Source of the DNA: Alphaproteobacteria bacterium
Lineage (GTDB): Bacteria > Pseudomonadota > Alphaproteobacteria > Rs-D84
Length of the DNA: 36,986 nt
Reading direction: 5' to 3'
NCBI GenBank assembly: GCA_017962125.1
Contig: JAGCVZ010000004.1
Span: 1-36,986 of the forward strand
Shown: positions 21,930-25,053 of the stretch, in pieces
Numbering within the stretch: the first letter of the stretch is position 1
How the letters are laid out: the number at the start of each line of letters is the position of its first letter
Notes under the pieces: model-generated
What the model saw: the letters and a program-made list of their open reading frames with translations, nothing else
Database searches by the model: none
Told to the model about the DNA's origin: nothing
Position numbers and translations under genes: made by a program

Positions 21930-21937
21930 GTAAAAGA
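21930..21937. repeat. 8-bp target-site duplication, left copy
   Basis: GTAAAAGA directly abuts the left terminal inverted repeat. The same octamer abuts the right repeat at 24315-24322, in the same orientation. Confidence 0.85.
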
Positions 21938-21969
21938 GGTAATTATATGGCTACTCGACCCATTTTTGT
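21938..21969 (+). repeat. left terminal inverted repeat (32 bp)
   Basis: Starts GGTAATTATATGGCTACTCG. It matches the reverse complement of 24283-24314 except at positions 23 and 25. The first 22 bases are identical. Confidence 0.88.
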
Positions 21970-22032
21970 AAAAAGGTTAGATTTATGGGTGTTTCAGAAT
22001 GGTTTTTATTTAAAAAATGTTAGCAAATAAAT

Positions 22033-22067
22033 AAAAACACCATTTTTCACAAGAAAATGGTGTTTTT
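22033..22067. terminator. strong hairpin near the left end of the element
   Basis: A 14-bp perfect stem, AAAAACACCATTTT (22033-22046) with AAAATGGTGTTTTT (22054-22067), and a 7-nt loop. T-runs on both strands make it a bidirectional terminator. It should shield the element's genes from outside transcription and block transcription running out to the left. Confidence 0.8.
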
Positions 22068-22110
22068 GAATAAGTTTGGCGACATATCGCATTTTATAAT
22101 CCAAATAAAT

Positions 22111-22155
22111 CATATAATTACCTTGAATTTGCTTGTTTTTTGCATATTTTATGAT
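22111..22155 (+). promoter_or_regulatory. promoter region of the ATPase gene with an internal TIR-end copy
   Basis: CATATAATTACC (22111-22122) is identical to the outermost 12 bases of the right TIR (24303-24314), same orientation. It directly abuts a -35-like TTGAAT (22123-22128) with TATTTT at 22145-22150 (16-bp spacer); TTGCTT/TATGAT (22129-22155, 15-bp spacer) is an alternative. A protein that binds the TIR could also bind here and control the cargo genes. Confidence 0.5.
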
Positions 22156-22203
22156 AGCATCTGGCTAATCAATCGGTATGAATTCAAAACAAAAAGGTTT
22201 ATG

Positions 22204-23145
22204 ATGTCTGAAAAAACAAACGAAAAATACGATTTGTGGGAAGAATACCTGAGAGGAATTGTATTGGGTATTCCTAATATGACAACAACCGAAAGAAACG
22301 AAATAAAGGAATTAGAACAAAAGATTCTGCCGGAAATCAACGAAAAAAAATCAACGGATTTACAATCGCATCCTGATGGTACGCACAAAGTGTTTGCAAG
22401 TGTGTTAAACGATGTAAAATTGAATATACCGGTTATGTTGGTGGGACCTGCAGGCAGCGGAAAATCAACAATGTTAGACCAAGTCGCAGAAAATTTAAAT
22501 TTAACATATTACCCAATGTCTGTGAATGGTCAAACAGCCGAATATCATATTGTTGGATATAAAAATGCAAATGGTGATTATATTGGAACGTCTTTCCGTG
22601 ATGCGTATGAAAAAGGCGGATTATTTTCGTTTGAAGAAATTGATGCGGGAAATCCAAATGTTTTGACCGTTATCAATAATGCACTTAGTCAGAATTTTTA
22701 TTTGTTTCCCGATAAAATCGTTCAAAAAAACGAACGCTTCAGATTATGCGCTTCGGCGAACACATATGGATACGGTGCAACCAGACAATACGTTGGACGC
22801 AATCCCTTGGATGCCGCAACATTGGACAGGTTTGCGATGACCTATATAGATTATGATGAAGATCTGGAAAAGCAAATTGGTCCTGTAAAGGAATGGACAT
22901 TTTTTGTTCAGGCTTTGCGAAGAGTTGTATCTTGTTGGGATGATCGTGTACCACCAATTGTAATAAGTACCCGTGCAGTAGTTCTGGGGGGACGTGATGT
23001 GCAATCAGGAACAAATTGGGACAATGTGTTGCATAAATTTGTTTGGCGTGGTGTCGCTTTAAAGCCAGAGGTTATAGGTGCTATGAAACGAGAAGCATTC
23101 AAATCGTTTATTAAAAACTATTTTACATATAAACGGACAAAATAA
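22204..23145 (+). CDS. MoxR/CobS-type AAA+ ATPase, transposon cargo
   Basis: A 313-residue AAA+ ATPase. Walker A GPAGSGKST lies near residues 80-88, Walker B FSFEEID near 141-147, sensor 1 ASANTYG near 183, and an Arg-finger-like segment RNPLDAATLDRF near 198-210. The lid region lies beyond about 225. The arrangement matches the MoxR/CobS/CbbQ clade, whose members remodel partner proteins and usually work with a von Willebrand A (vWA) protein. The N-terminal about 55 residues are helical and charged. AAAGG lies 6 nt before ATG 22204 (an ATG three bases earlier is also possible). The partner gene starts 3 nt after its stop. The substrate is unknown. Confidence 0.85.
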   Translation: MSEKTNEKYDLWEEYLRGIVLGIPNMTTTERNEIKELEQKILPEINEKKSTDLQSHPDGTHKVFASVLNDVKLNIPVMLVGPAGSGKSTMLDQVAENLNLTYYPMSVNGQTAEYHIVGYKNANGDYIGTSFRDAYEKGGLFSFEEIDAGNPNVLTVINNALSQNFYLFPDKIVQKNERFRLCASANTYGYGATRQYVGRNPLDAATLDRFAMTYIDYDEDLEKQIGPVKEWTFFVQALRRVVSCWDDRVPPIVISTRAVVLGGRDVQSGTNWDNVLHKFVWRGVALKPEVIGAMKREAFKSFIKNYFTYKRTK

Positions 23146-23147
23146 AT

Positions 23148-24050
23148 ATGAAGGTGTTCGAAAGATATTTTTTGTGGGATGATTTTTTGAACTATGTTGA
23201 TTGGCAACCGTCAAATTCTCAAGAAAGTAGCCATGCAGCTGATTTTTCACCACATGATTTGCCTGTCTCTTTGGATTTAGAATATAAAAAACAAAGATGG
23301 TACGGAACATCTTCGTTCGAAGAAGCAATGTTTATGGGGCGTAATGGATGGCCAGAAATGGCGAAAGAAGTAAAAGATGCTGTTGTAAATCCTTGGGATA
23401 CCCTTATCGATGGTCGTCCATGGAATCCAATACACTCAATTGCGGGGTCTAGCATAGATATAAACGGTTATATCGTTGGTGTCCCAGAATGTATGTTTCG
23501 ACAAAATGATTCTGTTACCAAGGCTGTGAATATTGTTATAAATGTGGGGCATCAATACAAAATTAGACCATCTGAGATCGTGAAAAACGGCAAAGAGATA
23601 GTTAATATGGTAAATGCATTTGAAATAAATAATATACGGACGCGATTGGTTGTTATGGTGGCTGTATCAGATGATGACAGTGATGTATTTCGGACTTTTG
23701 TTGTTTGTAAAGACCTTTATGATAATTTTGATTTAAAACGCGTTATGTTTGCGATTGCACACCCCAGTTTTTTACGCAGATTATGGTTTTCTATGGCAGA
23801 ACGGGAACCAAAGGAAATTCGTAGTAAATTTGGTTTTGAATTAGGTTGGGGCTATGGGGAGTGTGTACACGATTTTGAATATAAAAATGATAAAAATCTA
23901 CTGTATTTTGTTGTGAAAAAAGACCCTTCAACGATCAAGAACAAGATATTCGATATTGCGAAATCAAATTTTTTTGCATATTCTGAATTTAACCAGAATT
24001 TGCAAGACCTGACTTTAAAACGTTTTATAAAAACAGAGAAATCATATTAG
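23148..24050 (+). CDS. partner of the MoxR-type ATPase, possible degenerate vWA-like fold
   Basis: A 300-residue soluble protein translated right after the ATPase. I do not recognise a named family. The N-terminal 100 residues include SFEEAMFMGRNGWPEMAKEV. A central alpha/beta region (about 122-200) starts with the strand VNIVINVG, then a helix with IVNMVNAFE, then the strand TRLVVMVAVSDD. This order resembles a vWA domain, but the MIDAS site DxSxS is replaced by NVGHQ, so metal binding there is not expected. MoxR ATPases are typically paired with vWA proteins, which supports the guess. It ends with TAG; hairpins follow at 24059-24075 and 24092-24131. Confidence 0.75.
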   Translation: MKVFERYFLWDDFLNYVDWQPSNSQESSHAADFSPHDLPVSLDLEYKKQRWYGTSSFEEAMFMGRNGWPEMAKEVKDAVVNPWDTLIDGRPWNPIHSIAGSSIDINGYIVGVPECMFRQNDSVTKAVNIVINVGHQYKIRPSEIVKNGKEIVNMVNAFEINNIRTRLVVMVAVSDDDSDVFRTFVVCKDLYDNFDLKRVMFAIAHPSFLRRLWFSMAEREPKEIRSKFGFELGWGYGECVHDFEYKNDKNLLYFVVKKDPSTIKNKIFDIAKSNFFAYSEFNQNLQDLTLKRFIKTEKSY

Positions 24051-24091
24051 GTATTATTTTCTTACGTTGTAAGAATGATAATAACATAAAT

Positions 24092-24131
24092 ATCAAAAGA
24101 TCTGCCAATCGGCGGATTAGTAGCTTTTGAT
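24092..24131 (+). terminator. composite hairpin after the cargo genes
   Basis: The outer stem ATCAAAAG/CTTTTGAT (24092-24099, 24124-24131) encloses an inner stem ATCTGCC/GGCGGAT (24100-24117) with one G-U pair. A smaller hairpin, TTCTTAC-gtt-GTAAGAA, lies at 24059-24075. They probably end the cargo transcript, although no long T-run follows. No gene is visible from 24132 to the right TIR. Confidence 0.55.
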
Positions 24132-24282
24132 TTGGGCTAACATTTGTTCAAATTCATGTGATAATCATAAAAATTATTTTTCTCGTAAATCGTTGAAAAA
24201 ATATTTTTGGAGTTTTTACAAAATTTATGCATATTTATTTAGTAAAAACAATGTATTATATGCGTCTAGATATAATATTCAA

Positions 24283-24314
24283 ACAAAAACGAGTCGAGTA
24301 GCCATATAATTACC
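24283..24314 (-). repeat. right terminal inverted repeat (32 bp)
   Basis: Reverse complement of the left TIR with two mismatches; the outer 22 bases are identical. Confidence 0.88.
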
Positions 24315-24322
24315 GTAAAAGA
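24315..24322. repeat. 8-bp target-site duplication, right copy
   Basis: GTAAAAGA, identical to 21930-21937 and directly abutting the right TIR. From here to 24481 I see no gene. Confidence 0.85.
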
Positions 24323-24585: not shown

Positions 24586-25053
24586 ATGAGATTCTTTGTA
24601 TCAAAGACTTTGTTTGGGGCGTTGGTTTGCTTTTTCGCGGGTGTTGTTGTTGCTTATGCGGATCCAACGTTAGCGGATTATAAAACCGTTACTTCCAAGG
24701 CTTATGTCGATTCGTTGATAACGGGGGCGGCACCATCAGAAATGACGGTTGCCGAAGGACGTACTGGGACTGCAACTACGGGACGGTCTGAAACTGCTAA
24801 AAATTTAAAGGCTATTATCCAAGGAACTGGTCTTGACACAGTTACGATGACCGAAACCGGGGTGGCGACGTTGGCGCTGGACACAACACAAACGGGTGCT
24901 ATTGCATCGACGGATACTATAATTGGTGCTCTGGGCAAGGCTCAGGGCCAATTAAACAATAAACAAACTAAAAAAACGTGCTATCAATATCGGCCGGATG
25001 CGCCAAATAATCCAACTGCGGCGGATTGTTGGTTATGGAGTTTGGCGGACTAA
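24586..25053 (+). CDS. secreted protein of unknown function (155 aa)
   Basis: A 155-residue exported protein with a clear signal peptide (about 1-25, cleavage near AYA|DP). The mature part is rich in Thr, Ala and Gly with low hydrophobicity: KTVTSKAYVDSLI, then a TGTATTGRSETAKN stretch and repeated Thr-rich strands (DTVTMTETGVATLALDTTQT). The SKAYVDSLI and GALGKAQGQL pieces recall phage tail-fibre and surface-appendage repeats. It ends with a short Cys-containing module (TCYQYRPDAP...DCWLWSLAD), which could form a disulfide. A good promoter and a terminator make it a single-gene unit. Surface exposure is inference. Confidence 0.75.
   Translation: MRFFVSKTLFGALVCFFAGVVVAYADPTLADYKTVTSKAYVDSLITGAAPSEMTVAEGRTGTATTGRSETAKNLKAIIQGTGLDTVTMTETGVATLALDTTQTGAIASTDTIIGALGKAQGQLNNKQTKKTCYQYRPDAPNNPTAADCWLWSLAD

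Follow-up and report, generated by a model that had tools for sequence, protein, structure and literature searches.

A probable non-autonomous insertion cassette with IS1595-type ends carries a phage-type AAA+ ATPase/DUF7192 gene pair in a rumen-type alphaproteobacterium

From our analysis of a 36,986-nucleotide stretch of DNA (hereafter, the window) from a rumen-type Alphaproteobacteria bacterium, we found an element of 2377 bp (21938-24314) which is very probably a non-autonomous member, or mobile insertion cassette, of a new IS1595-family branch, carrying an operon of a phage-type ATPase and a DUF7192 protein. The element is bounded by 32-bp terminal inverted repeats that match at 30 of 32 positions and is flanked by a perfect 8-bp target duplication [Table 1]. 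The original prediction had given these same figures and had placed them far beyond chance; all of them were exact on re-reading, and when the same 2.65 kb was shuffled 15 times under a first-order Markov model, with the dinucleotide make-up kept, the best inverted 32-mer reached 22-24 matches as against the 30 observed. Two genes, both on the plus strand and 2 bases apart, make up the gene content. A transposase domain was found in neither of them with Pfam, PHROGs, NCBIfam or PADLOC, so that the four family libraries agree with the earlier observation that both genes lack any transposase sign. To the right of the insertion, at 24586-25053 of the window, lies a gene for a 155-aa protein with a signal-peptide-like start and no Pfam match.

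Table 1. Features of the window element and of elements with the same or related ends in the same genome and in relatives
Feature	Location	Strand	Basis or remarks
Left copy of 8-bp target duplication, GTAAAAGA	21930-21937	.	Direct reading
Left terminal inverted repeat, 32 bp	21938-21969	+	End-specific similarity to related elements reaches about 22013
Terminator-like hairpin (14 bp, perfect, flanked by A/T runs) outside the cargo	22033-22067	.	Inverted repeat; putative function
Probable left-end remnant of an older element, inside the present one	22106-22122	.	Alignment to the decayed left end seen in relatives at alaS-glycosyltransferase
Cargo gene 1, AAA+ ATPase	22204-23145	+	AAA_5, phrog_249, PDB midasin and CobS, dN/dS
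Cargo gene 2, DUF7192 protein, 300 aa	23148-24050	+	PF23822, phrog_1909, fold searches, dN/dS
Right end of the element (172 bp; of the transposase-side type), with its terminal inverted repeat at 24283-24314	24143-24314	-	84% identity to the G084 element
Right copy of 8-bp target duplication, GTAAAAGA	24315-24322	.	Direct reading
Second element in the window's genome (G000)	L010 3862-4690 = C13:33861-34689		829 bp; duplication AAAATTTA; no transposase
G084 element	L048 1070-10867		9.8 kb; duplication GTCTTTTT
G024 element	L049 2476-13364		10.9 kb; duplication CATTTTTT
G052 element	L050		1.2 kb
G057 element	L051 1671-3870		2.2 kb; serine resolvase kept, no transposase; ankyrin-repeat protein
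Second G084 element	L053		1.2 kb
G179 miniature element, other genus of the family	L063 5966-6192		227 bp; related ends; duplication TTATAAAA
G067, ninth end pair	L052 3193-4932		No duplication; serine resolvase kept, no transposase

A 20-base end probe, allowed up to three mismatches, matched five times in the whole 936-kb genome, and its reversed control did not match; the ends of two elements account for four of these sites. The second element adjoins a tRNA-like gene and encodes one 201-aa protein without a family match. A 24-base end pattern, scanned in 183 genomes of the same bacterial family, matched in 15 (the reversed control matched in one), and from these matches eight elements were recovered that have both ends and a perfect 8-bp duplication, range from about 0.2 to 10.9 kb and are unrelated in their contents. 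The original prediction had proposed a search for further copies and for a full IS with the same ends in this and related genomes; both copies and full-length IS1595-type elements were found. In another relative (G142), two contig ends each carry one element end next to the same octamer, GAATAAAT.

Each of the two largest elements, in G084 and G024, has a gene for an IS1595 transposase of 329 aa, which is 96% identical between the two elements and matches PF12762 (DDE_Tnp_IS1595; 3.9e-31) and the zinc ribbon Zn_ribbon_IS1595 (1.3e-7). Alongside it are genes for a 129-aa protein, a serine resolvase and another IS1595-like protein (552/556 aa; 27% identical). The catalytic-core D, D and E residues align in all four transposases. 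Both also contain genes for an FtsK/HerA-like ATPase and a penicillin-binding-protein-like transpeptidase, and the G024 element has an OGG-type DNA glycosylase match. The window element, the 829-bp element and the two 1.2-kb elements encode neither resolvase nor transposase. End sequences are nevertheless common to the window element and the transposase-bearing ones: the terminal 172 bp on the right of the window element are similar to that end of the 9.8-kb G084 element which lies on the transposase side, and the terminal 60-76 bp on the left are similar to the opposite end of that element type, with 83% identity over 60 bp to the right end of this autonomous element and 85% over 76 bp to an element end in G142. 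Judged from sequence, the ends are those of a previously unseen branch of the IS1595 family. Duplications of 8 bp are typical for IS1595 elements (PMC5704250, PMC10045372), and passenger genes are known in them (PMC5704250, PMC10045372, PMC3129680).

In the window's genome, which is 94% complete, an IS1595 transposase was found neither by family model nor by protein search, which is indicative that the element is a non-autonomous insertion cassette. The transposase occurs in a minority of relatives (12/173 in one search, 10/201 in another), and five of the 12 transposase-bearing genomes are among the 15 end-bearing genomes. One related IS1595 transposase gene (G022 C4:1764-2702, L232) is interrupted by in-frame TGA and TAG codons and is probably a decaying copy. 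An IS1595-type DDE transposase from a full-length relative, probably absent from the window's genome now, would bind the 32-bp ends and, acting in trans as the ends and the relatives suggest, would cut or copy everything between them and leave the 8-bp target duplication.

The start of the ATPase gene is best placed at 22204 (ATG TCT GAA), and the far-upstream mechanical ORF start at 22057 was set aside. Its product matches AAA_5 (1.2e-12), phrog_249 (7.9e-46) and, in the PDB, CobS and midasin, and the Walker A (GPAGSGKS) and Walker B (FSFEEID) motifs are intact as read in the translation. By these sequence matches it is an AAA+ ATPase of the CobS/NorQ/midasin (MoxR-like) clade, which bears out its earlier placement in the MoxR/CobS clade. 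The second gene product matches PF23822 (DUF7192; 7.5e-34) and phrog_1909 (1.2e-34), and our literature search found no mention of DUF7192. The DUF7192 profile had no match among PDB sequences. An AlphaFold model made with a 60-sequence alignment had a pLDDT of 79, and its five best Foldseek matches in the PDB were NorD VWA chains from NorQ-NorD complexes (best E 2.3e-4); a viral structure library returned DUF7192 proteins first and then phage CobT and VWA proteins. In VIA-align, the model scored Z 6.8 to NorD and 6.7 to the Rea1 MIDAS domain with low TM-scores, and Z values up to 6.8 lie where unrelated folds can also score. The VWA reading is favoured because the best eight rows, NorD VWA and Rea1/MDN1 MIDAS domains, are all VWA domains partnering AAA+ proteins of the same clade. 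The MIDAS motif DxSxS is not conserved in DUF7192: columns 132-136 are variable across the 60 sequences, and the window protein has N-V-G-H-Q there. The predicted structure of DUF7192 weakly resembles the NorD VWA domain. Structure prediction of the partner protein, which had been proposed at the outset, gave this VWA-like predicted fold.

The pair itself appears to be mainly a phage association. DUF7192 was found in 156 viral contigs with an alignment query (single-sequence patterns of the window protein had no match in viral contigs), and the window protein is 18-28% identical to phage DUF7192. Of the 85 phage loci examined, 79 have an ATPase gene and the DUF7192 gene as same-strand neighbours, with either one first. 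The phrog_249/phrog_1909 pair of mycobacteriophages, Tunturi_4, Stab23 and many uncultured phages comprises the same families, adjacent and on the same strand, whereas the window pair is bacterial and lies within a transposable element. Among bacteria, six of 183 genomes in the family carry the pair, and DUF7192 occurs in three of 385 genomes spread over the class, which indicates that it is rare in bacteria of this class. Distant copies of the pair with a longer DUF7192 and without matching ends were seen in G020 (L090 2785-5273, beside thrS) and G039 (L091 2901-4916). In G148, a 1024-aa frame on the minus strand (L092 7169-10243) fuses a CobS-like AAA+ domain to the last part of DUF7192, and the middle of the pair is missing. 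No convincing end-like sequences were found near the diverged copies in these three genomes.

We then compared the window with a second site. In G084 (MAG RUG13256) and G050 (RGIG8185, from water-buffalo rumen), the pair lies between alaS and a glycosyltransferase gene; the DUF7192 proteins there are 81-84% identical to that of the window, and the units have no intact ends. Gene homologues at another location, which had been named as a test of mobility, are therefore present in two genomes. The site is unoccupied in the window's genome and also in G072 (CCATATTTTGC), which is about 97% identical to G084 there. The filled site in G084 reads ATATTTTG (element) ATATTTGC, with end-like sequence at both borders; aligned to the empty genomes, it is CC ATATTTTG (unit) ATATTTG CGCCGCGG as against CC ATATTTTG C, and the duplication is 8 bp and near-perfect, with one T missing on the right. 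Scored as decayed ends, the borders have background p values of 8e-4 (left) and 6e-5 (right) in G084 and 7e-5 (left) in G050, with six offsets tried per border and an AT-rich background that weakens the scores; the right border of the G050 copy has no recognisable end. Homology between the window and the alaS unit covers 22113-24079 only, which is the interior of the unit and none of its flanks. We infer that an older element of this type was the first carrier of the pair, that a decayed copy of it persists at the alaS site of two related species, and that in the window its interior, together with remnants of its ends, is now enclosed by newer ends. Inspected by eye, the window showed no nested insertion in which this interior had an 8-bp duplication of its own.

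A search of 146 genomes with the joined flanks gave no exact unoccupied counterpart of the window insertion site; conservation was limited to the tRNA-Arg side and the adjacent gene on the left. The right flank is specific to the window's own genome, and other genomes of the genus had no match to it. The search for an empty site with a single octamer, which the original prediction had suggested, succeeded in one half: G095 has the left flank with one GCAAAAGC and no element, and its right flank differs.

At fourfold-degenerate sites, divergence between the window's genome and G084 is 0.31 for the pair; in the alaS region, three genes that are well conserved have values of 0.46-0.51, and the comparison with G050 points in the same direction. 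The fourfold-site G+C of the pair is 0.36 as against about 0.5, which accounts for only a small part of the divergence gap. The lower synonymous divergence of the pair than of host genes suggests horizontal movement. The dN/dS values of 0.23-0.33 for the ATPase and 0.19-0.24 for DUF7192 denote purifying selection, so that both copies have been kept as working genes.

The original prediction had left two alternatives, of which a non-autonomous element with a two-gene cargo is the one favoured by the IS1595-bearing full-length relatives and by the presence of the same pair at a second site. The other, that the two genes are themselves the transposition machinery, with the AAA+ protein as a target selector or activator in the manner of Tn7 or Mu and DUF7192 as the catalytic protein, draws on the pair being the sole genes between the ends and on the fact that AAA+ ATPases serve some transposons. 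It is nonetheless very unlikely, indeed hardly credible, as other elements with the same ends lack the pair and have unrelated contents, the full-length ones encode IS1595 DDE transposases, the pair is adjacent in phages and occurs in G020 and G039 without matching ends, and no conserved DDE-like triad was found in the 60-row alignment of DUF7192, which is a phage protein, is predicted to fold like a VWA domain and has an ATPase companion. We also consider it improbable that the unit is a relic of a decayed prophage which never moved whole and whose ends are two chance later insertions. The genes are of phage type, two insertions could give a left and a right end, and a remnant of an older end lies inside the element; however, the 8-bp duplication is common to the outermost ends, which argues for one insertion event of the whole unit, the same interior is found at the alaS site with its own duplication, and the flanks, with obg, nusG and ribosomal protein genes among the neighbours, showed no further recognisable phage genes.

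A further possibility would add to the insertion-cassette reading rather than replace it, namely that the cassette is a working anti-phage or superinfection block against phages that use a related pair. The phage-type pair, its patchy carriage (6/183 genomes), the divergence pattern of horizontal movement and the purifying selection would all fit this role, but in PADLOC the ATPase matched at P-loop level only, DUF7192 had no match and no defence model was matched over its length, and no defence genes were seen beside the element; we regard the role as rather unlikely. The cargo of the other elements gave only OGG-type, ankyrin and P-loop matches in PADLOC, which do not suffice for calling that cargo defence. 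Similarly tentative is the broader idea that the pair is a phage-derived, MIDAS-less AAA+/VWA machine that has become a portable bacterial system, perhaps one against superinfecting phages, spread from species to species in trans by this IS1595 branch with its exchangeable cargo.

As for the activity of the cargo, known pairs offer a guide. In NorQ-NorD, CobS-CobT, CbbQ-CbbO, RavA-ViaA and, in fused form, midasin, an AAA+ protein of the same clade stands beside a partner with a VWA fold, as the predicted VWA-like fold of DUF7192 would have it here; unlike those MoxR AAA+/VWA pairs, the present one has a partner of weak structural similarity, without a conserved MIDAS, and is mostly phage-borne. 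In NorQ-NorD, the VWA protein enters the pore of the AAA+ ring, and movement driven by ATP is relayed to the target (PMC13036017, PMC9976466). By analogy, the pair is most likely an ATP-driven remodelling machine with a VWA-like adaptor, a reading we hold with moderate confidence, in which an AAA+ hexamer would be the motor and DUF7192 would select the target.

Non-autonomous cassettes and passenger-carrying IS1595 elements are already known. MIC231 cassettes of IS231 in the Bacillus cereus group, thought to be mobilised in trans by a related IS (PMC3129680, PMC3281130, PMC2266710), likewise have IS-type ends, a target duplication, no transposase and passenger genes inside, although the ends in the window are of IS1595 and not IS4/IS231 type and the cargo is a phage-type AAA+/DUF7192 pair. 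The IS1595 transporter elements tISCpe8 and MTnSag1 share the IS1595 DDE family, inverted ends, 8-bp duplications and passengers (PMC5704250); they encode their own transposase and are conjugation-mobilizable, whereas the window element is without a transposase, and the full-length relatives described here differ from them in having two IS1595-like proteins and a serine resolvase. According to our literature and database searches, two things are new: an IS1595 branch that exchanges its cargo freely and encodes a resolvase as well as two transposase-like proteins, and the fact that a phage ATPase/DUF7192 pair has been taken up as a passenger. Few families are known to have gene-carrying non-autonomous cassettes, and phages commonly carry MoxR/VWA-like pairs; the element links the two in a small-genome clade, where one set of IS1595 ends accompanies many cargoes, one of them a phage gene pair under selection. 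In essence, it yields a testable set of transposase and ends, and a small two-protein machine for biochemistry.
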